This document shows positions 33,406 through 41,977 of a DNA stretch of 64,000 bases, one piece after another. Every line of letters begins with the position of its first letter. The stretch's first letter is position 1. Source of the DNA: Rhizobacter sp. AJA081-3 (GTDB lineage: Bacteria > Pseudomonadota > Gammaproteobacteria > Burkholderiales > Burkholderiaceae_C); contig NZ_CP059067.1 in the NCBI RefSeq assembly GCF_017795745.1, forward strand, positions 1,674,001 to 1,738,000. The letters are read 5' to 3'. Under the pieces are notes generated by a model that was not told the origin of the DNA, did not search any database, and saw only the letters and a program-made list of their open reading frames with translations. The position numbers were made by a program, and so were the translations under genes.

Positions 33406-34317
33406 TCAGTGGTGTTCGTCGTAGCTGAAGCGCTTGGCGATGCTGATCAGCAGCGCCTCCAGCAGCAGGCCGACGACGCCGATCACGACGATGGCGATCA
33501 GGATGTGCTTCACGTTGAGGTTGTTCCACTCGTCCCACACCCAGAAGCCGATGCCCACGCCGCCGGTGAGCATCTCGGCTGCCACGATCACCAGCCAGGC
33601 CGTACCCACCGACAGGCGCACGCCGGTCAGCATGTAGGGCAGTACGGCGGGAAACAGTATCTTGGTGATCACCTTCCACTCGCTCAGGTTCAGCACCTTG
33701 GCGACGTTCAGGTAGTCGGCCGGCACGCGCTGGACGCCCACGGCGGTGTTGATGATCATCGGCCAGATCGAGCAGATGAAGATCGTCCAGATGGCTGCCG
33801 GGTTGGCCGCCTTGAACACCAGCAGGCCGATGGGCAGCCAGGCCAGCGGCGACACCGGCCGCAGCAGGCTGATCAGCGGCGAGACCATGCGATTGAGCAC
33901 CTCGAAACGGCCGATCATGAAGCCCATCGGGATGCCCACCACCGCCGCCATGCCGAAGCCGATGGCCACGCGCTCCAGCGAGAACAGGATATTCCAGCCG
34001 ATGCCCTGGTCGTTCGGCCCCTTCGAGTAGAACGGGTCGGCGAACAGCTTCACTGCCGCGTCGAAGGTGGCCAGCGGCGTCGGGAAGGTCTCGCTCTTCA
34101 TCGTCAGCAGCGCCCAGATCCCGATCAGCAGGGCCACACCGATGAGCGGTGGAAGCACCTTGAGCAGCATGCCGTTCCAGTCGAAGCCCGGCCTGGGCGG
34201 CGCTGCTGGCTTCGGCAGTTCGGCAGTGGCGGCCTTGGCGGCCGACAGCGTCGCTGCAGCGTCGGCCTTGGCATCCATGCTGGCTTGCAGCGGGGTGTGA
34301 AACACGGCACTGACCAT
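33406..34317 (-). CDS. nrtB: Nitrate ABC transporter permease
   Basis: 303 aa. A long N-terminal extension rich in Ala/Pro (about 1-48) precedes six membrane segments of the binding-protein-dependent permease family; the EAA-like loop is around NVAKVLNLSEWKVITKILFPAVLPYMLTG. AGGAG lies seven bases before the ATG. Located 23 bp downstream of nrtA. Confidence 0.92.
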   Translation of the reverse strand: MVSAVFHTPLQASMDAKADAAATLSAAKAATAELPKPAAPPRPGFDWNGMLLKVLPPLIGVALLIGIWALLTMKSETFPTPLATFDAAVKLFADPFYSKGPNDQGIGWNILFSLERVAIGFGMAAVVGIPMGFMIGRFEVLNRMVSPLISLLRPVSPLAWLPIGLLVFKAANPAAIWTIFICSIWPMIINTAVGVQRVPADYLNVAKVLNLSEWKVITKILFPAVLPYMLTGVRLSVGTAWLVIVAAEMLTGGVGIGFWVWDEWNNLNVKHILIAIVVIGVVGLLLEALLISIAKRFSYDEHH

Positions 34318-34340
34318 GGTGTGCTCCTGGGCGTCGGTGT

Positions 34341-35564
34341 TCAGACCTTGACCTTGAATCCGTCGGCGTACTTGGCCGGTTCCTTGCCGTCCCAGACCAC
34401 GCCGTCGATCAGCTTGCTGCTGCGCATCGGGCTGGCAGGCACGCTGACCTTGAGGGCGCCGGCCGCCTGCTTGTAGAGATCGATCTGGTTCACCTGTTTG
34501 GCCACGGCCAGGTAGTCCGGGTGTTCCTTCAGCAGCCCCCAGCGCTTGTGCTGCGTGAGGAACCACATGCCGTCGGACAGGTACGGGAAGTTCACTGCGC
34601 CATCGTTGAAGAACTTCATGTAGTTCGGATCGTCCCAGGTCTTGCCCAGGCCGTTCTGGTAGCGGCCCAGGATGCGCTGGTTGATCACGTCGACGCTGGT
34701 GTTGACGTAGCTCTTGTCGGCCACCGTCTCGGCCATCTTGTTCTTGTTCTGCAGGCCGGCGTCGATCCAGCGGCCGGCCTCGAGGATGGCCATCATCACG
34801 GCGCGCGCGGTGTTCGGGTACTTCTTGACGAACTCGCCGGTGGTACCGAGCACCTTCTCGGGGTGGTCCTTCCAGATGTCCTGCGTGGTGACGGCGGTGA
34901 TGCCGATGCCGTCGGCGATGGCGCGGTGGCCCCAGGGTTCACCGACGCAGTAGCCGTCCATGTTGCCTACGCGCATGTTGGCCACCATCTGCGGTGGCGG
35001 CACGGTGATGACCTTGGCGTCCTTCATCGGATTCACGCCGACACTGGCCAGCCAGTAGTACAGCCACATGGCGTGGGTGCCGGTCGGGAAGGTCTGCGCG
35101 AAGGTGTACTCGCGCTTGTCGGTGCTCATCAGCTTGGCCAGGCTCGCTGCGTCGACCGCACCCTTGTCGGCCAGCTTCTTCGACAGCGTGATCGCCTGAC
35201 CGTTGTTGTTCAGCGTCATCAGCACGGCCATGTCCTTCTTCGGGCCGCCCACGCCGAGGTGCACGCCGTACACCAGGCCGTAGAGCACATGCGCCATGTC
35301 GAGCTCGCCATTGACGAGCTTGTCGCGCACGCCGGCCCAGGAGGCTTCCTTGGTCGGGATGATCTTCACACCGTACTTCTTGTCGAAACCCAGCACCGAA
35401 GCCATCACCACCGAGGCGCAGTCGGTCAGCGGGATGAAGCCGATGCGCACCTCTTCCTTCTCAGGCTTGTCGGAGCCCTGCGCGTAGACCGCGCTCTGCA
35501 GTCCGGGCACGAGGCCCGTGGCACCGGAGGCGGCGGCGGCCTTGATGAGGGTTCGGCGGCTCAT
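34341..35564 (-). CDS. nrtA: Nitrate-binding protein NrtA with Tat-type signal
   Basis: 407 aa from the ATG at 35564. The N-terminus MSRRTLIKAAAASGATGLVPG has a twin-arginine motif and a cleavage site near VYAQG. The mature protein is a CmpA/NrtA-type nitrate or nitrite binder (VRIGFIPLTDCASVVMA, YGLVYGVHLG, GYCVGEPWGHRAI). An in-frame ATG at 35594 would add ten residues; it lacks a ribosome binding site, whereas GGAAG lies about six bases before 35564. Expression is predicted to be controlled by the leader terminator at 35618-35669. Confidence 0.92.
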   Translation of the reverse strand: MSRRTLIKAAAASGATGLVPGLQSAVYAQGSDKPEKEEVRIGFIPLTDCASVVMASVLGFDKKYGVKIIPTKEASWAGVRDKLVNGELDMAHVLYGLVYGVHLGVGGPKKDMAVLMTLNNNGQAITLSKKLADKGAVDAASLAKLMSTDKREYTFAQTFPTGTHAMWLYYWLASVGVNPMKDAKVITVPPPQMVANMRVGNMDGYCVGEPWGHRAIADGIGITAVTTQDIWKDHPEKVLGTTGEFVKKYPNTARAVMMAILEAGRWIDAGLQNKNKMAETVADKSYVNTSVDVINQRILGRYQNGLGKTWDDPNYMKFFNDGAVNFPYLSDGMWFLTQHKRWGLLKEHPDYLAVAKQVNQIDLYKQAAGALKVSVPASPMRSSKLIDGVVWDGKEPAKYADGFKVKV

Positions 35565-35617
35565 GAGGATCTTCCGTGTCGTCGAGTGGGTCATGGCAGG
35601 TGGCTGATGTGCAGTCG

Positions 35618-35669
35618 AAAAAAAACGTCCACACGTCGTCTGCCCGGTGGGGCGGAGTTCGTGAGGACG
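35618..35669 (-). terminator. Leader attenuator terminator upstream of nrtA
   Basis: On the minus strand CGTCC-T-CACG pairs with CGTG-T-GGACG (one T-T mismatch), enclosing 24 bases, and is followed by eight U residues. It ends 54 bp before the nrtA start, inside the transcribed leader. Bases 35677-35683 (read as CGGTGGG) can pair with 35645-35651 (CCCACCG) in the terminator loop, a candidate antiterminator that begins directly after hexaloop hairpin P2. This is the expected architecture of ANTAR-controlled antitermination. Confidence 0.8.
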
Positions 35670-35683
35670 TCGTCGTCCCACCG

Positions 35684-35736
35684 CAGCGCATCGGCCTTGA
35701 TCCGCTGGGGTGATCGCGAGGGTCGGCTTTGACCCT
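35684..35736 (-). promoter_or_regulatory. Tandem ANTAR-target hexaloop hairpins in nrtA leader
   Basis: Minus strand: P1 (35736-35719) has stem AGGGTC/GACCCT and loop AAAGCC. P2 (35707-35684) has stem CAGCGGATC/GATGCGCTG with one G-G mismatch and loop AAGGCC. Both loops have A at 1 and G at 4. The linker is 11 bases. P1 begins about three bases from the predicted transcription start. The nasT gene ends 136 bp upstream on the same strand, so the regulator and its RNA target are neighbours. Confidence 0.82.
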
Positions 35737-35749
35737 TCACTGCACACGT

Positions 35750-35765
35750 TGCAATCGCTATGCCA
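35750..35765 (-). promoter_or_regulatory. Sigma-54 (-24/-12) promoter of nrtABC
   Basis: TGGCATA-GCGA-TTGCA on the minus strand; GG and GC are exactly 12 bp apart. The predicted start is near 35739. It matches the promoter found upstream of nirB in type and in distance to the hexaloop hairpins. Confidence 0.75.
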
Positions 35766-35815
35766 GCGCATTGCAGGCGATTTGCCCGGAAGAAGCAGGG
35801 ATGTCGATGCTGCTA

Positions 35816-35864
35816 TGCACCATTTGAGGTGCGTTGCGGCGCCTGACGCACCCGGCTTGTGCGT
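35816..35864. promoter_or_regulatory. Two NtrC-type dyads upstream of nrtA
   Basis: ACGCAC-CCGGCTT-GTGCGT (35846-35864) is a perfect dyad with the NtrC spacing GCAC-N7-GTGC. TGCAC-N8-GTGCG (35816-35833) is a second dyad with one extra base in the spacer. Their centres are about 30 bp apart, close to three helical turns, at roughly -86 and -116 from the predicted start, suitable for paired NtrC binding. Confidence 0.62.
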
Positions 35865-35871
35865 TGCCAGC

Positions 35872-36504
35872 TCAGATCAGGAGGTCGGCGACGTCCACGA
35901 TGCGCTGCGCCACTTCGGCGAGCTTCATGCCCCGGTCCATCGCTGTCTTTCGCAGGCGAGAATAGGCCGCCTCCTCGCTGAGCGAGTGCCGCGTCATCAG
36001 GATGCCCTTGGCCTTGTCGATGACCTTTCGTTCGCTGAGTTGGGTGCGGGCGTCGGCGAGTTCGCGTCGAAGGTTCTCCTCGTGCGTGAATCGCGCCAGC
36101 GCGACGTCGAGCACAGGCCGGATGCGCTCCGGGGCGAGCCCAGCGACGACGTAGGCCGACACACCGGCGGCGATGGCCGCGCCAACCTGGCTGGTGTCGT
36201 CGTCGTTGGTGAACAGCACGATGGGGCGCCGCGCGTCGCGGGTCGCCATCACGACGTGCTCCAACGTGTCGCGCGCCTGGCTCTCGGCGTCCACGATGAC
36301 CATGTCAGGCGCGATCTGCGCCAGCCGCTCGGTGAGGAAAGTGTCTGCCGGCAGCACCGCGACGATGTTGTAGCCGCTTTCGATCAGGCCGATGCGCAGG
36401 CTGCGCGAGCGTTCGAGCTCAGTCTCCGTGTGCGCGTCCGCGAGGTCGCGCTCCAGCGGTTCGGGAGCGACGATGACGATTCGGAGCTGCGGCGTGGCGG
36501 GCAT
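35872..36504 (-). CDS. nasT: NasT-type ANTAR antitermination regulator
   Basis: 210 aa. Residues 1-140 form a receiver-like domain: D72 in MVIVDAES is in the phosphoacceptor position, but the usual acidic pair after strand 1 is replaced by APEP and about a dozen extra residues follow. A coiled coil (140-160) leads to the ANTAR domain (about 160-206, VIDKAKGILMTRHSLSEEAAYSRLRKTAMDRGMKL). ANTAR domains bind paired hexaloop RNA hairpins and prevent termination. Known NasT proteins are held by the nitrate sensor NasS; no nasS is present in the window. GGGG lies before the ATG. It sits between a small winged-helix gene and the nrt promoter. Confidence 0.92.
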   Translation of the reverse strand: MPATPQLRIVIVAPEPLERDLADAHTETELERSRSLRIGLIESGYNIVAVLPADTFLTERLAQIAPDMVIVDAESQARDTLEHVVMATRDARRPIVLFTNDDDTSQVGAAIAAGVSAYVVAGLAPERIRPVLDVALARFTHEENLRRELADARTQLSERKVIDKAKGILMTRHSLSEEAAYSRLRKTAMDRGMKLAEVAQRIVDVADLLI

Positions 36505-36979: not shown

Positions 36980-37432
36980 TCACGCGTCGTGGTGATGGAG
37001 GGCTCTCTGGACTTCGGTTTGCCAAGGCAGGGCATGCACCAGCCCATTGAGATGCACGGCCACCTGGAAGTCGCTCAGGGCCTTGCCGTGCGAATCGAGC
37101 AGTTTCAGATTCGTCACCAGGCCCAGTGGGTCGGCGATGGCGAGCACGCCTTCCTCGACCTCGATCCAGTCCCAGGCCACGCCCGCCGACCGGTCGTTAG
37201 AGGCTTCTCCCCACAGCGTCTGCCCGCTGCAAAGGCAGGCGTCGTCCCCATAATGCAGAACACGGGTGCCGAGGTGCACGAGGCGCAGATGTGGCGCAAC
37301 GTCCACCTGCCACAATACCGGTGGCCACGCGCAGACTATCCAGGCGGGGGTCATGGGCTGGTACATCCGATGGCCATCCATCGTTCTTGATTCGACGGAC
37401 GAGAGTGTGGCAAGGCCTTGTCGTCGTGCCAT
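36980..37432 (-). CDS. Hypothetical protein beside the LuxR regulator
   Basis: Up to 150 aa, not recognised. The sequence is rich in Trp, Leu, Val and His (WIVCAWPPVLWQVDVAPHLRL, CLCSGQTLWGE), with a beta-rich look and a His-rich end. There is no signal peptide or membrane segment. AAGG lies eight bases before the first ATG (37432), but that ATG overlaps a lux-box-like dyad; if the dyad controls this gene, the start at 37381 (MDGHRMYQP) is more likely. Divergent from luxR, so it may belong to the same regulon. Confidence 0.6.
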   Translation of the reverse strand: MARRQGLATLSSVESRTMDGHRMYQPMTPAWIVCAWPPVLWQVDVAPHLRLVHLGTRVLHYGDDACLCSGQTLWGEASNDRSAGVAWDWIEVEEGVLAIADPLGLVTNLKLLDSHGKALSDFQVAVHLNGLVHALPWQTEVQRALHHHDA

Positions 37433-37450
37433 CTGTAAGACCTTGCAGGG
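37431..37450. promoter_or_regulatory. Lux-box-like dyad between the hypothetical gene and luxR
   Basis: ATCTGTAAGACCTTGCAGGG contains the near-palindrome CTGTAAG-AC-CTTGCAG (six of seven arm positions symmetric). It shares CTGTAAG with the box at 38260 and agrees with the Vibrio fischeri lux box at about 14 of 20 positions. It is 53 bp upstream of the luxR ATG, suited to autoregulation. Confidence 0.6.
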
Positions 37451-37503
37451 ACGCGCAAGGTCGTGAGGATTCGACTTAACGCGGCGCGAGCTGGATAAAA
37501 CGC

Positions 37504-38217
37504 ATGCTGCAGGACGGCTATCTGTCGGTGCTGGAAGCCAGGGATCGCGACGAGTTCCTGGGGCAGGTCGTGCGTTTCGCGAAGCGCCTCGGCTTCGATA
37601 CCGTCACCGCGACGACGATCATCGACCATTTCCTTGGCGAGTCCGAACTCATCAGCGTGGACAACGCGCCGGTGGGCTACCGCGACACCCATGAAGACAT
37701 GGGTCAGGCCCAGCGGGACCCCGTGATGCAGCACTGCAAGCGGCAAAGCGTGCCCATCATCTGGAATCGCGACACCTACGTGGGCGCAGGGTTGGCTGAC
37801 AAGTGGGACGAGCAGGCGCGGTTCGGCTATCACACGGGCGTGGCCATGGCTCTGCATCTGCCGGAAGGTCGGCACTTCTTTCTCGGGGTCGATCGCGACC
37901 AGGCGCTGCCCAGCAATCGCTCAGAACTCACACGCATGGTGGCCGACCTGCAGTTGTTCGCCGTGCATGCCCAGGAGGCGGCGCAGCGCATCATGTTGCC
38001 CGCCACGAGGGACAGCGATGCTCCCAGCCTGACGCCTCGCGAGGTCGAGAGCCTGCGCTGGACGATGGACGGGAAGACGGCCTGGGAAGTCGGCAACATC
38101 CTGGGCATCAGCGAACGCACGGCCGTACTGCACGTCAACAATGCCATGCACAAGCTGGGTTGCATCAACAAGCACCAGGCCGTGCTGAAGGCGCTGCGCC
38201 TCGGGCTCATCCGTTGA
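37504..38217 (+). CDS. LuxR-family regulator with autoinducer-binding domain (LuxR solo)
   Basis: 237 aa. Residues about 10-160 form an autoinducer-binding domain; 173-237 form the LuxR helix-turn-helix (LTPREVESLRWTMDGKTAWEVGNILGISERTAVLHVNNAMHKLG). Aligned with TraR, the acyl-homoserine-lactone contacts D70, P71 and W85 are kept (D72, P73, W87), but W57 and Y61 are replaced by Y59 and H63. No luxI is in the window. Changes at these two sites are typical of solos that bind other ligands, such as plant compounds or unusual lactones. Lux-box-like dyads stand before this gene and before the peptide gene downstream. Confidence 0.88.
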   Translation: MLQDGYLSVLEARDRDEFLGQVVRFAKRLGFDTVTATTIIDHFLGESELISVDNAPVGYRDTHEDMGQAQRDPVMQHCKRQSVPIIWNRDTYVGAGLADKWDEQARFGYHTGVAMALHLPEGRHFFLGVDRDQALPSNRSELTRMVADLQLFAVHAQEAAQRIMLPATRDSDAPSLTPREVESLRWTMDGKTAWEVGNILGISERTAVLHVNNAMHKLGCINKHQAVLKALRLGLIR

Positions 38218-38259
38218 CATCGCGCGCACTTGCAGCGTGGAGCCGTTCGCTCCGGTTGG

Positions 38260-38279
38260 ACCTGTAAGAGCTGACAGTT
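38260..38279 (+). promoter_or_regulatory. Lux-box-like dyad upstream of the double-glycine peptide gene
   Basis: ACCTGTAAGAGCTGACAGTT agrees with the canonical lux box at about 15 of 20 positions, with the outer ACCTGT fully conserved. Its centre is about 43 bp upstream of the transcription start predicted from the extended -10 at 38298, the position used by LuxR-type activators that contact polymerase directly. Confidence 0.72.
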
Positions 38280-38297
38280 ATGCGAAGCGGGTGTGGC

Positions 38298-38306
38298 TGC
38301 TGAAAT
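38298..38306 (+). promoter_or_regulatory. Extended -10 promoter element for the peptide gene
   Basis: TGC-TGAAAT is an extended -10 element (TGn plus a 4/6 match to TATAAT) with no good -35, as expected of an activator-dependent promoter. Predicted start near 38313, giving a leader of about 40 nt before the peptide ATG. Confidence 0.5.
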
Positions 38307-38353
38307 CTGTCTTGCGCAATTTGTGCGCGTCAAGGCAAGGTCAGGAGCCCACC

Positions 38354-38521
38354 ATGCAAACCACGAAGCGCGACTCTTCGAAGGCCAATCGGGAAATCAA
38401 GCTCGGCACCACGCTTCAGCCGAAGCGCCAGAACAAGCAGTCCGCTCCCGTTGAACTCGATGCGCGCTCCTTGCGGCACGTCAGCGGCGGCGTGGTGACC
38501 GGTCCTCACAAGGGCTGGTGA
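38354..38521 (+). CDS. Double-glycine leader peptide, predicted secreted nonapeptide precursor
   Basis: 55 aa. AGGAG lies seven bases before the ATG. The N-terminal 33 residues are hydrophilic and basic. They lead into ELDARSLRHVSGG, a canonical double-glycine leader end: L at -12, L at -7, V at -4, GG at -2/-1. After the GG only nine residues remain, VVTGPHKGW. C39-peptidase ABC exporters cut after GG, and exactly such an exporter with its HlyD adaptor follows. The mature size is far below class II bacteriocins, so a signalling peptide or small modified product is plausible; that is inference. I do not recognise a named family. Confidence 0.8.
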   Translation: MQTTKRDSSKANREIKLGTTLQPKRQNKQSAPVELDARSLRHVSGGVVTGPHKGW

Positions 38522-38522
38522 G

Positions 38523-38546
38523 AACCCGGCGCCCGGTTGCCGGGTT
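38523..38546 (+). promoter_or_regulatory. Hairpin directly after the peptide stop codon
   Basis: AACCCGGC-GCCCGGTT-GCCGGGTT is a perfect eight-bp stem starting two bases after the TGA, without a U tract. Such hairpins often stabilise a small-peptide mRNA or limit read-through into exporter genes, giving more peptide than transporter. Confidence 0.5.
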
Positions 38547-38603
38547 GAATCAGGTCGGCATCGCTGGCCGGGTCGTGCGGGGCGCTCGTCACAGCGCTCA
38601 CGT

Positions 38604-39848
38604 ATGAGCAGCCTGTTCCGCCCCGAAGTCATCGAGAACCGGCAGAGCCAGTGGCTCGGCAGCATCCAGCTGCTGCGGCCCGTGTCGCTTCACGTGCTCA
38701 CGCTGTTGGCGGTGGGCGCGGTCGTAATCGTGGCTGCCTACCTGTGGGTAGGCGAGTACACGCGCAAGGCCCATGTGAAGGGTTTTCTCGCGCCCGACCG
38801 CGGCGTGATGCGCCTCATGTCGCCGCAGGCCGCGACGGTGCTCGAGAGCCGGGCCGTCGAAGGGGCAAGTGTGCGTGCCGGCGACGTGCTCTACGTGCTG
38901 TCGGTCGATGCTGCCAATGTCTCGGTCAACGTGCGCGAGACGCTGACGGCGCGCGAACGCAGCCTGCAAGGTGCGGCGCGCCAGCAGGCGGAACTGGAGC
39001 GGGAGCGCGCTCAGGCGCTTGACCGTCAGGTCGCCACCATGCGCGGCGAACTCGGTCAGATCGATGCCGAGGCGCGCCTTCACGAGCAGCGGCTGGCACT
39101 GGCTGAACAGGCGCTGGCTCGCCTCGAATCCCTGCGTGCCGACAACTTCATCTCCGCTGCCCAGGTGCAGGCCAAGAACGAGGAACTGCTCGGCCTGCGT
39201 GCGCAGGCGCAGTCGCTGCAGCGCCAGCGCGCCGCGCAGATGCGCGAGATCGAGCAGTTGCTCGCCCGCCGCCGCGAGCTGCCGCTGCAGACCCAGGTGG
39301 CGCAGGGCGAACTCGAGCGCGACATGGCCGAGATCGCGCAGCAGCAGGCCGAGAACGACTCCCGCCGCCGCATCGAGATCCGCGCGCCGCAGGACAGCAC
39401 GGTGACCGGCGTGGTCGCGCAACCCGGCCAGTCCGTCAATGCCTCGGTCGCGCTGGCCAGCCTCTTGCCCGCCGACGCACGCCTGCAGGCGCATCTCTTC
39501 GCCCCGTCCAGTGCCGTCGGCTTCGTGAAGCCTGATCAGCCTGTACTGCTTCGCTACCAGGCCTTCCCGTACCAGAAGTTCGGCTTGCAAGGCGGCCAGG
39601 TGGCGCAGGTGTCGCGCTCTCCCTTGCAGGCCAGTGAACTGGCGGGCGTGCCGCTGCCCAAGTCCGACGGCGAGGCCGAGCCGCTGTACCGCATCACCGT
39701 CACGCTCGACAAGCAGGCCGTCGCCGCCTACGGCCGCGAACAGGCGCTGTCGCCGGGCATGCAGCTCGAAGCCGACGTGATGCTCGATCGGCGCCGCCTG
39801 ATCGAATGGATCTTCGAGCCGCTGCTCGGGCTGGCGAGCCGGGTCTGA
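38604..39848 (+). CDS. HlyD-family membrane-fusion adaptor for peptide export
   Basis: 414 aa. One N-terminal membrane segment (about 29-49) follows a short cytoplasmic tail. A lipoyl-like half (KAHVKGFLAPDRGVMRLMSP) and a long coiled coil (about 105-260, very rich in Gln/Glu/Arg) come next, then the second lipoyl half (IRAPQDSTVTGVVAQPGQSVNASV) and a beta-barrel region. This is the adaptor type that pairs with peptidase-containing ABC exporters, as in microcin/colicin V export (CvaA-like). It starts 82 bp after the peptide gene and ends 2 bp before the exporter. Confidence 0.9.
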   Translation: MSSLFRPEVIENRQSQWLGSIQLLRPVSLHVLTLLAVGAVVIVAAYLWVGEYTRKAHVKGFLAPDRGVMRLMSPQAATVLESRAVEGASVRAGDVLYVLSVDAANVSVNVRETLTARERSLQGAARQQAELERERAQALDRQVATMRGELGQIDAEARLHEQRLALAEQALARLESLRADNFISAAQVQAKNEELLGLRAQAQSLQRQRAAQMREIEQLLARRRELPLQTQVAQGELERDMAEIAQQQAENDSRRRIEIRAPQDSTVTGVVAQPGQSVNASVALASLLPADARLQAHLFAPSSAVGFVKPDQPVLLRYQAFPYQKFGLQGGQVAQVSRSPLQASELAGVPLPKSDGEAEPLYRITVTLDKQAVAAYGREQALSPGMQLEADVMLDRRRLIEWIFEPLLGLASRV

Positions 39849-39850
39849 GC

Positions 39851-41977
39851 ATGATCGACGCGCTGCGACTCGGATTCGGCGGCGCCCGGCTGCCCATGCT
39901 GCTGCAGACCGAAGGCGCCGAGTGCGGCCTGGCTTGCCTGGCGATGGTGGCGTCGTTCCACGGCCTGCAAACCGACCTGCAAAGCCTGCGCCGGCGCTTC
40001 TCGCTCTCGCTCAAGGGCGCCACCATGGTCGACATGGTGCGCATGGCCGGGCAGATCCAGCTCAACGCGCGCGCGCTGCGCGCCGAGATGGAACATCTCG
40101 ACCAGCTCGCCACGCCTTGCGTGCTGCACTGGGACCTGAACCACTTCGTGGTGCTGAAGGAAGTCCGCCGCGGCCACGCGATCATCCACGACCCGGCGCG
40201 CGGCGTGCGGCGCGTGTCGCTGGCCGAGGTCTCGCGCCACTTCACCGGCGTGGTGCTCGAGCTGACGCCGCGCTCCGACTTCCAGCCGAGACGCGAGCAC
40301 CGGCCCGTCAGCCTGCGCCAGCTGCTCGGTCGCGTCACCGGGCTGAAGCGCTCGCTGATCCAGATCCTGGTGCTGGCGCTCGCGCTCGAGGCCTTCGTGC
40401 TGCTCACGCCCTTCTTCATGCAGTGGGTGGTCGACGGCGTGCTCGTCAGCGCCGATCGCGATCTGCTGGTCACGCTGGGGATCGGCTTCGCATTGCTCGT
40501 GCTGCTGCAGGTGGCCACCGGGGCGGTGCGCTCCTGGGCCGTATTGCACCTGTCCAGCACGCTCAACCTACAGTGGCTGAACAACGTCTTCGCCCACCTG
40601 ATGCGCCTGCCGGTGGACTGGTTCGAGAAGCGCCATACCGGCGACGTGCTGTCGCGCTTCGGTGCTGTGCAGCAGATCCAGCAGACGCTGACCACCAGCT
40701 TCATCGAGGTGGTGCTCGACGGCGCGCTGGTCGTGGTCACACTGGCGATGATGTTCGTCTACAGCCCGGCGCTGAGCGCCATCGCGATCGGCTGCGTGGC
40801 CGTCTACGCGCTGCTGCGCTGGGCCTTCTTCCGGCCGCTGAGCGAGGCCACCGAAGAGGCGATCGTGCATGACGCCAAGCGCGCCAGCCACTTCCTCGAG
40901 TCGCTGCGCGGCGTACAGGCCATCAAGCTGGCCAACCGCCAGGAGGACCGCCAGGCCCGCTTCATGAACCTGGTGGTCGACGCGATGAACGCCAATATCG
41001 CCACGCGCAAGCTTGAGGTGCTGTTCGGCGTGCTGCACAAGCTGGTGTTCGGGCTGGAGCGCGTGGCGGTGCTCTGGGTCGGCGCGCTGCTGGTGCTCGA
41101 CCAGCGCTTCTCGGTGGGCATGCTGTTCGCGTTCTTCGCCTACAAGGAGCAGTTCGCGCTGCGTGTCAGCGGCCTGATCGACAAGGTGGTCGAGCTGAAG
41201 ATGCTGCGCCTGCAGGGCGAGCGGCTCGCCGACATCGTGCTCACGCCGCCCGAAGCCGAACCCGAGGCCACGCCGCGCCGGCATGAACTCGCGGCCAGGC
41301 TGGAATTGCGGGACGTACGTTTCGCCTATTCCGATGGCGAGCCGCCGGTGATCGAGCACCTGAACCTCGTCATCGAGCCGGGCGAGTCGGTGGCCATCGT
41401 CGGTCCTTCCGGCTGCGGCAAGACCACGCTGCTCAAGATCATGCTCGGCATCCACGCGCCGGAGTCCGGCGAGGTGCGCGTGGGCGACGTGCCGATGCGC
41501 CACCTGGGCCTGCGCGCCTGGCGCGACATGATCGGCACGGTCATGCAGGACGACCAGCTGTTCGCCGGCTCGATCGCCGACAACATCGCCTTCTTCGATG
41601 CGCGGGCCGATGCCCAATGGGTCGAGCAGTGCGCGCGCTTCGCTGCCGTGCACGACGAGATCGAGGCCATGCCGATGGGCTACCACACGCTGATCGGCGA
41701 CATGGGTGCCAGCATTTCCGGAGGCCAGAAGCAGCGCATCCTGCTGGCGCGTGCCCTCTACAAGCGGCCGAAGATCCTGTTCCTCGACGAAGCCACCAGC
41801 GCGCTCGACATCGACCGTGAGCGCCTCGTCAACCAGGCGATCCGCCAACTCGAGATCACCCGCGTGGTCGTCGCGCACCGGCCGGAGACCATCGCCGCGG
41901 CGGCCCGGGTGGTCGTGCTTGCCGGCGGACGCGTGTCGCAGGACCTGCGCACTGTCAGCACGGCCGGTCAGCGCTGA
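39851..41977 (+). CDS. Peptidase C39-containing ABC exporter (PCAT) for double-glycine peptides
   Basis: 708 aa. The N-terminal C39 peptidase has its oxyanion Gln19 and catalytic Cys25 (LQTEGAECGLACLAM), His98 (LNHFVVL) and Asp114 (IIHDP), all intact. Six membrane segments follow (about 160-445), then the nucleotide-binding domain with GPSGCGKTT, SISGGQKQR, ILFLDEATSALD and VVVAHRPET. It cuts leaders after GG and exports the product, in the manner of CvaB/RaxB. The ATG at 39851 is used; the frame extends upstream into the HlyD gene only as shadow. No TolC-like gene is adjacent. Confidence 0.93.
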   Translation: MIDALRLGFGGARLPMLLQTEGAECGLACLAMVASFHGLQTDLQSLRRRFSLSLKGATMVDMVRMAGQIQLNARALRAEMEHLDQLATPCVLHWDLNHFVVLKEVRRGHAIIHDPARGVRRVSLAEVSRHFTGVVLELTPRSDFQPRREHRPVSLRQLLGRVTGLKRSLIQILVLALALEAFVLLTPFFMQWVVDGVLVSADRDLLVTLGIGFALLVLLQVATGAVRSWAVLHLSSTLNLQWLNNVFAHLMRLPVDWFEKRHTGDVLSRFGAVQQIQQTLTTSFIEVVLDGALVVVTLAMMFVYSPALSAIAIGCVAVYALLRWAFFRPLSEATEEAIVHDAKRASHFLESLRGVQAIKLANRQEDRQARFMNLVVDAMNANIATRKLEVLFGVLHKLVFGLERVAVLWVGALLVLDQRFSVGMLFAFFAYKEQFALRVSGLIDKVVELKMLRLQGERLADIVLTPPEAEPEATPRRHELAARLELRDVRFAYSDGEPPVIEHLNLVIEPGESVAIVGPSGCGKTTLLKIMLGIHAPESGEVRVGDVPMRHLGLRAWRDMIGTVMQDDQLFAGSIADNIAFFDARADAQWVEQCARFAAVHDEIEAMPMGYHTLIGDMGASISGGQKQRILLARALYKRPKILFLDEATSALDIDRERLVNQAIRQLEITRVVVAHRPETIAAAARVVVLAGGRVSQDLRTVSTAGQR

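Follow-up and report, generated by a model that had tools for sequence, protein, structure and literature searches.

The window analysed here is a 64 kb stretch (positions 1674001-1738000) of a single-contig genome of 5.40 Mb, and it contains a compact gene cassette in which a LuxR-type regulator stands next to the genes for a very small peptide and its predicted export. The features of the cassette, in window coordinates, are as follows.

36980..37354, minus strand: RsaM-like (DUF4902) gene, its start placed at a conserved Met (the open reading frame runs to 37432)
37431..37450: lux box 2, inside the gap between the RsaM-like and LuxR genes, 78 nt from the RsaM start
37504..38217, plus strand: LuxR-type receptor/regulator (Pfam; its model matches QscR and RhlR)
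38260..38279: lux box 1, ACCTGTAAGAGCTGACAGTT, 74 nt ahead of the peptide start
38354..38521, plus strand: putative pheromone precursor gene, 55 aa (open reading frame; alignment)
38354..38491, plus strand: double-glycine leader, 46 aa, ending in SGG (sequence; alignment)
38492..38518, plus strand: predicted export product VVTGPHKGW (cleavage after GG as expected from the C39 family)
38501..38518, plus strand: conserved hexapeptide unit GPHKGW, the proposed signal (unit set by tandem precursors of relatives)
38604..39848, plus strand: HlyD adaptor (Pfam HlyD_3, E 3.3e-10)
39851..41977, plus strand: C39 peptidase-containing ABC exporter, PCAT (Pfam C39, ABC_membrane, ABC_tran)

The exporter gene is followed by tsaD. 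The initial annotation had described a LuxR gene, two boxes, a 55-codon double-glycine peptide gene, an HlyD adaptor and a C39 exporter on the plus strand between 37431 and 41977; all of these are present in the order it gave, and the two boxes do have CTGTAAG in common. The divergent RsaM-like gene, which belongs to the conserved set, was absent from its list. Upstream of the cassette, at 33406-36504, the open reading frame translations read by eye indicate an ANTAR-type response regulator and a nitrate-type ABC permease together with a binding protein; the regulator is also kept next to the cassette in four contexts from the same genus (L031-L034).

Receptor, lux boxes and divergent gene

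The LuxR receptor family is known for sensing small lactone signals. Both domains of the family are present in the LuxR protein of the window (Autoind_bind, E 5e-21; GerE, E 5.8e-15; Pfam), and an AlphaFold2 model (pLDDT 87), with QscR and RhlR as its best structure matches, supports an ordinary LuxR fold. No second PF03472 protein was found in the genome, which leaves the cassette LuxR as the only autoinducer-binding protein found there, and a search of the same genome for a LuxI-family synthase (PF00765) gave no match. Among 62 carriers of the cassette, 55 are likewise without a LuxI match; PF00765 matches occur in 7, none beside the cassette, the nearest being a partial match about 17 kb away in G245.

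Box sites were scored by a weight matrix that had been built from the cassette loci themselves, and the scores were compared with those of shuffled controls. Sites exceeding every shuffled control are present 3' of LuxR in 140 of 141 loci and between the RsaM-like and LuxR genes in 133 of 139. Allowing up to two mismatches, the strict box occurs once in the 5.4 Mb genome, and the pattern CTGTAAGNNNTNNCAG recovers only the two cassette sites, compared with 10 sites for the reversed control pattern. With these strict patterns no box site was found outside the cassette in this genome, and looser patterns were judged too noisy, so LuxR may have further target genes. The distance from the end of box 1 to the peptide start is 73-77 nt (quartiles across loci). 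The RsaM start was found in 88 loci; its distance from box 2 is 76-78 nt in 26 of them and scatters in the rest. From this placing, LuxR would seem to control the signal operon as well as an RsaM brake.

The RsaM-like protein of the window matches PF16245 (DUF4902) at E 2.8e-4, below the cut-off of the family, and E<=0.01 is reached by 21 of the 28 relatives in the alignment. While a profile of these proteins found no match at 0.01 among PDB sequences, an AlphaFold2 model (pLDDT 79) matches 4o2h, the RsaM homolog BCAM1869, with an E value of 5e-6, and the two 4o2h chains are the only structures to pass 0.001 in the fold comparison. Profile and fold together place the divergent gene, whose start Met was assigned by conservation, in the RsaM family, and it is likely a brake on the module. 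According to the review PMC10710839, rsaM genes invariably neighbour luxI and/or luxR, and divergent rsaM-luxR solo pairs are among the arrangements described.

Predicted export of the peptide

All features expected of PCAT export, namely a C39 domain, an HlyD adaptor and a GG leader on a small gene, are found in the cassette. The exporter (39851-41977) has a Peptidase_C39 domain (E 1.2e-34) in addition to ABC membrane and ATPase domains (Pfam), and by eye it retains the residues that we take to form the peptidase motif (Cys, His and Asp). PCAT exporters often serve bacteriocins, and the best NCBIfam match of this one is the NHLP bacteriocin exporter TIGR03796, below its cut-off. No importer gene accompanies the cassette; elsewhere the genome encodes nine SBP_bac_5 proteins.

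Conservation of the cassette

The precursor of the window ends in LRHVSGG followed by VVTGPHKGW. A search of 149 relatives with this single peptide sequence gave weak yet orderly matches, and nine aligned precursors have in common the GG, one Pro and the terminal Trp. With a peptide profile, 235 of 399 family genomes gave matches at E<=1, chance matches among them, and of 65 peptide-found places examined, 60 hold a LuxR homolog, each with a peptide gene of this kind (60/60). Since these 65 places had been chosen by peptide and were biased accordingly, a LuxR-first search was run, in which the LuxR alignment was compared with named genomes and the best 80 of 171 relatives were kept. Among these best 80 of 171, a matching peptide gene lies beside LuxR in 79, with an xPxxxW unit in a small gene just 3' of LuxR in 74 and a related unit devoid of Trp (LPRVS, LPRVG, LPRAG) in 5, while one locus ends at a contig edge. 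In the same best 80 of 171, an RsaM-like gene is found at 79 loci and HlyD and PCAT genes are both nearby at 67; the four closest named LuxR relatives in this set are from Piscinibacter (86-81% identity), a genus placed by NCBI in Sphaerotilaceae. All loci together, which partly overlap, yield 111 distinct precursors with 73 distinct terminal units. Both the cassette and the family of hexapeptides are real and conserved, and the peptide gene is kept beside the exporter in relatives, a point on which the initial annotation had staked its proposal.

The loose xPxxxW pattern returned only noise when further precursors were sought in the retrieved contexts, except for a cut cassette copy in L108. 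A LuxR profile search at E<=1e-50, class-wide (369 genomes) and order-wide (399 genomes), found only the window's genome and an outlier, G876; remote LuxR relatives may be hidden by this strict threshold. The G876 locus (L210), from another family of the order, has a LuxR of 39% identity, a weak RsaM match, a box-like site and, on the RsaM side, a short GG-type open reading frame ending in GGGFAFVGGN; neither HlyD nor PCAT is matched there, and the scanned part contains no xPxxxW gene. It is possibly a distant relative with another core, or else a product of chance.

Several variants of the cassette were observed. At L128, L129 and L130 (named Rhizobacter), as well as at L073 and L074, a GG peptide gene and the RsaM-LuxR pair have no HlyD or PCAT match nearby, and the exporter of these loci may be located elsewhere. 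At L168, L180, L183, L190 and L196 no exporter is found nearby and a tiny leaderless gene ends in an xPxxxW-type unit, as in the 18-aa open reading frame ending in LLPRNGW at L180 and L183.

A repeated unit of six residues

The initial annotation had taken the nine residues after the GG as the natural unit, which does not hold across relatives. Two to five copies of a unit are present in 43 of the 111 precursors and are identical in 38 of these, as illustrated by LPRGTW in four copies (L170) and GPNGGW in five (L145). When copies 1 and 2 of 41 tandem precursors were lined up, Pro and Trp being fixed by the search pattern, the copies agreed in 41/41 at offset 0, 41/41 at offset 2, 37/41 at offset 3 and 36/41 at offset 4; upstream, at offsets -1 to -4, they agreed in 4, 1, 7 and 3 of 41. 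The first unit directly follows GG or GA in 42 of the 111 precursors, and the precursor ends with the unit in 98 and has a tail in 13. The nonapeptide was rejected as the unit both on the grounds that tandem copies match over six residues only and on the grounds that the stretch from GG or GA to the first unit is between 0 and 32 residues long; it is the last six residues that are conserved. Because tandem copies delimit six residues, the signal of the window is probably GPHKGW, contained within VVTGPHKGW, the predicted first export product.

Joint change of receptor and peptide

A comparison with the close relative G002 in bins of 150 bases shows 63-83% identity within 37651-38850 and 85-100% outside. 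This low-identity island spans LuxR, the peptide gene and the start of HlyD, and protein identities to G002 are 98.5% for the RsaM-like protein, 86% for LuxR, 49% for the peptide, 95% for HlyD and 99% for PCAT. As LuxR and the peptide gene are neighbours, one recombination event can alter both.

The same relation was examined in 22 non-overlapping close pairs (PCAT identity 0.85 or more). The 9 pairs with the same hexapeptide have ligand-domain identities of 0.97-0.99, whereas the 13 pairs with different hexapeptides have ligand-domain identities of 0.73-0.94 and helix-turn-helix (HTH) identities of 0.87-0.98, with PCAT identity at 0.94-0.99 in 8 of these 13. The mean difference between ligand-domain and HTH distance is 0.004 in same-hexapeptide versus 0.120 in different-hexapeptide pairs (Mann-Whitney P 5e-5), and at PCAT identities of 0.93 or more (9 versus 8 pairs) the difference between ligand-domain and PCAT distance gives P 4e-5. 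In partial Mantel tests over 88 loci, hexapeptide distance correlates with ligand-domain distance (r 0.18, P 0.001) and with neither PCAT (P 0.98) nor HlyD (P 0.24) nor HTH (P 0.71). Exceptions occur outside the non-overlapping set, in that the same-unit pairs L187/L201 and L082/L085 reach ligand-domain identities of only 0.88-0.89 and the different-unit pairs L100/L186 and L035/L072 have 0.91-0.94. Because the LuxR ligand domain covaries with the hexapeptide, the peptide is the likely ligand of LuxR. Of the earlier proposal, a LuxR-linked cassette for the production and export of a very small peptide is supported; the idea that LuxR does no more than switch the peptide on is not.

Covariation in the ligand pocket

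The window LuxR aligns gap-free to LasR over most of the ligand domain, LasR numbers being window numbers plus 1, and as pocket columns we used those that we take to be the LasR ligand contacts. Maximal covariation with the hexapeptide has a median z of 7.0 in the 15 variable pocket columns, compared with 2.9 in 100 other variable ligand-domain columns (P 2.6e-6) and 2.3 in 30 columns beyond residue 165, and pocket columns make up 8 of the top 12 covarying columns. Residue rules were counted on 89 PCAT-containing loci. No locus combines Gly at unit position 5 with LuxR Gly69 (0/40), and all loci with Gly69 are non-Gly at that unit position (35/35); Lys or Arg at unit position 3 goes with the non-polar class at LuxR 100 (55/55), and Asn or His with the polar class (13/14); at unit position 1, Gly goes with Phe126 (13/14) and Ala with Cys114 (25/31). 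These links between pocket and hexapeptide are physically sensible, with complementarity of size and charge. The window itself fits the rules, with Phe126 and Ala114 alongside Gly1, Lys100 alongside His3 and Ala69 alongside Gly5. On the exporter tree the characters in these rules undergo 9 to 22 changes; independent evolution, simulated 1000 times in each of four tests, never produced an association as strong as the one observed.

Furthermore, for each of nine signal characters the best LuxR column beats the best HlyD, PCAT and RsaM column, the lead being slight for Leu at position 1 (0.56 versus 0.54) and Lys at position 4 (0.55 versus 0.54). Between distant loci (PCAT below 0.80), pocket similarity recovers 2.15 of 4 hexapeptide positions, versus 1.61 for the rest of the ligand domain, 1.45 for HlyD, 1.31 for PCAT, 1.08 for HTH and 0.99 for random choice, with all four positions correct in only 13% of pocket-based recoveries.

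The loci with Trp-less units (LPRVS, LPRVG, LPRAG) are L146, L155, L178, L182 and L185, and their LuxR columns 39, 49 and 75 are changed; these are three of the 4 columns, out of 237, with a fixed difference in these five loci, which are possibly related, making this weak evidence, and all three are presumably LasR pocket positions. At L036, L089, L093, L104 and L105, two to four extra LuxR-like genes with different pocket residues lie beside the cassette LuxR, and it is possible that such arrays are eavesdropping receptors for other hexapeptides.

We take TraR W57, Y61, D70, P71, W85 and G113 to be the six residues of the acyl-homoserine lactone (AHL) site. Four residues of the AHL fold (Asp, Pro, Trp and Gly) are each retained in 109-111 of 111 LuxR proteins, so LuxR may still bind AHLs. 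Trp is present at the W57 position in 6/111 and Tyr at the Y61 position in 20/111; the window LuxR has Tyr and His at these two positions and lacks the full set of six.

A probable peptide quorum-sensing module and its alternatives

Judged from sequence, the cassette probably constitutes a complete peptide quorum-sensing module, in which a LuxR-type receptor would be paired with a ribosomally made, PCAT-exported hexapeptide. In this module, liganded LuxR would act at box 1 to switch on the precursor, HlyD and PCAT genes, and box 2 would serve the divergent RsaM-like gene. PCAT would cut the precursor after GG and, together with HlyD, export VVTGPHKGW, which would be trimmed to GPHKGW (elsewhere xPxxxW, each precursor having one to five copies). 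Outside the cell the hexapeptide would build up; it would then return to the cytoplasm and bind LuxR in the pocket that corresponds to the AHL site of LasR, which would complete a positive loop restrained by RsaM, and lineages would differ in their hexapeptides and matching pockets as pherotypes. We infer cleavage, trimming, re-entry, direct binding, activation instead of repression and the role of RsaM from knowledge of the protein families and from the covariation.

Other readings of the cassette account for parts of these data. The lux boxes, the adjacency of the genes and the retained Asp, Pro, Trp and Gly of AHL receptors would all be expected if LuxR were a solo that senses some other signal (the AHL of a neighbour, for example) and does no more than switch on a secreted peptide with another job; we consider this improbable, as it gives no account of why pocket columns track the hexapeptide above other ligand-domain, HTH, HlyD, PCAT and RsaM columns, and the altered W57 and Y61 positions of the window, along with the rarity of Trp at the former, also speak against it. 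Just as unlikely, in our estimate, is a self-sensing timer, in which LuxR would bind its own precursor or hexapeptide within the producer, with export serving disposal or another purpose, and in which the peptide might even inhibit LuxR. The lack of a cassette-linked importer fits such a timer, as does the 18-aa leaderless gene with no exporter nearby in L168, L180 and L183, but the exporter and adaptor nearby in 67 of the best 80 of 171 loci do not, and pherotype-like diversity fits a shared signal more easily.

The peptide could also be a small bacteriocin or modified peptide, its covariation with LuxR being a by-product of recombination of a block of neighbouring genes. The frequent service of PCATs to bacteriocins, the sub-threshold match to TIGR03796 and the location of LuxR and peptide within one divergence island point that way, whereas no modification or immunity gene is found among the conserved cassette genes, the unit has only six residues, and the covariation is focused on pocket columns and goes beyond the tree-based null; we regard this explanation as highly improbable. 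The module of receptor and exported hexapeptide is likely to represent a new class of quorum sensing, in which LuxR proteins would recognise exported xPxxxW hexapeptides in the former AHL pocket with a pherotype code at residues 69, 100, 114 and 126, in many genera of Sphaerotilaceae and near relatives.

Relation to known systems and significance

The RRNPP systems of Gram-positive bacteria use a short linear encoded peptide that is exported and re-enters through an oligopeptide permease to reach a cytoplasmic TPR receptor, and they form pherotypes. The cassette is alike in its short encoded peptide, export, proposed re-entry, cytoplasmic receptor and pherotypes, but differs in its LuxR-type receptor, its PCAT exporter and its Gram-negative host. 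Double-glycine signals of the ComC/ComA type are longer, PCAT-exported and sensed by membrane kinases; the GG leader and C39 exporter are alike, whereas the cassette has an HlyD adaptor and a cytoplasmic LuxR. With LuxI/LuxR AHL quorum sensing that includes RsaM, for instance CepIR with BCAM1869, the cassette has in common the LuxR fold, the lux box and the divergent RsaM-like neighbour, but it has no LuxI, carries a GG peptide gene and an exporter, and is altered in its AHL-contact residues. RsaM-luxR solo pairs are classed as type 6 in PMC10710839, whose available portion makes no mention of a peptide. According to the available portion of PMC4981722, the LuxR homolog PipR responds to a Ser-His-Ser peptide at high concentration, requires an ABC importer and senses an external plant-related compound, its neighbours being peptidases and the importer. 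PipR/OryR solos are flanked by a proline iminopeptidase or importer, in contrast to the RsaM-like, peptide, HlyD, PCAT and TsaD neighbours of the window. A LuxR-linked exported peptide signal was not found in the openly accessible literature (titles; bioRxiv and most subscription papers lying outside it).

If confirmed in the laboratory, the module would be a new kind of cell-to-cell signalling, used by certain bacteria of fresh water and soil. The rule of thumb by which LuxR proteins go with small diffusible metabolites and encoded peptide pheromones with Gram-positive receptors would no longer hold. A group of LuxR solos would gain a concrete ligand, and the shift of a pocket from a lipid-like signal to a peptide would have an example. 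With 73 terminal units in 111 precursors, many genetically encoded signal-receptor pairs would become available, for which the pocket code yields testable predictions.
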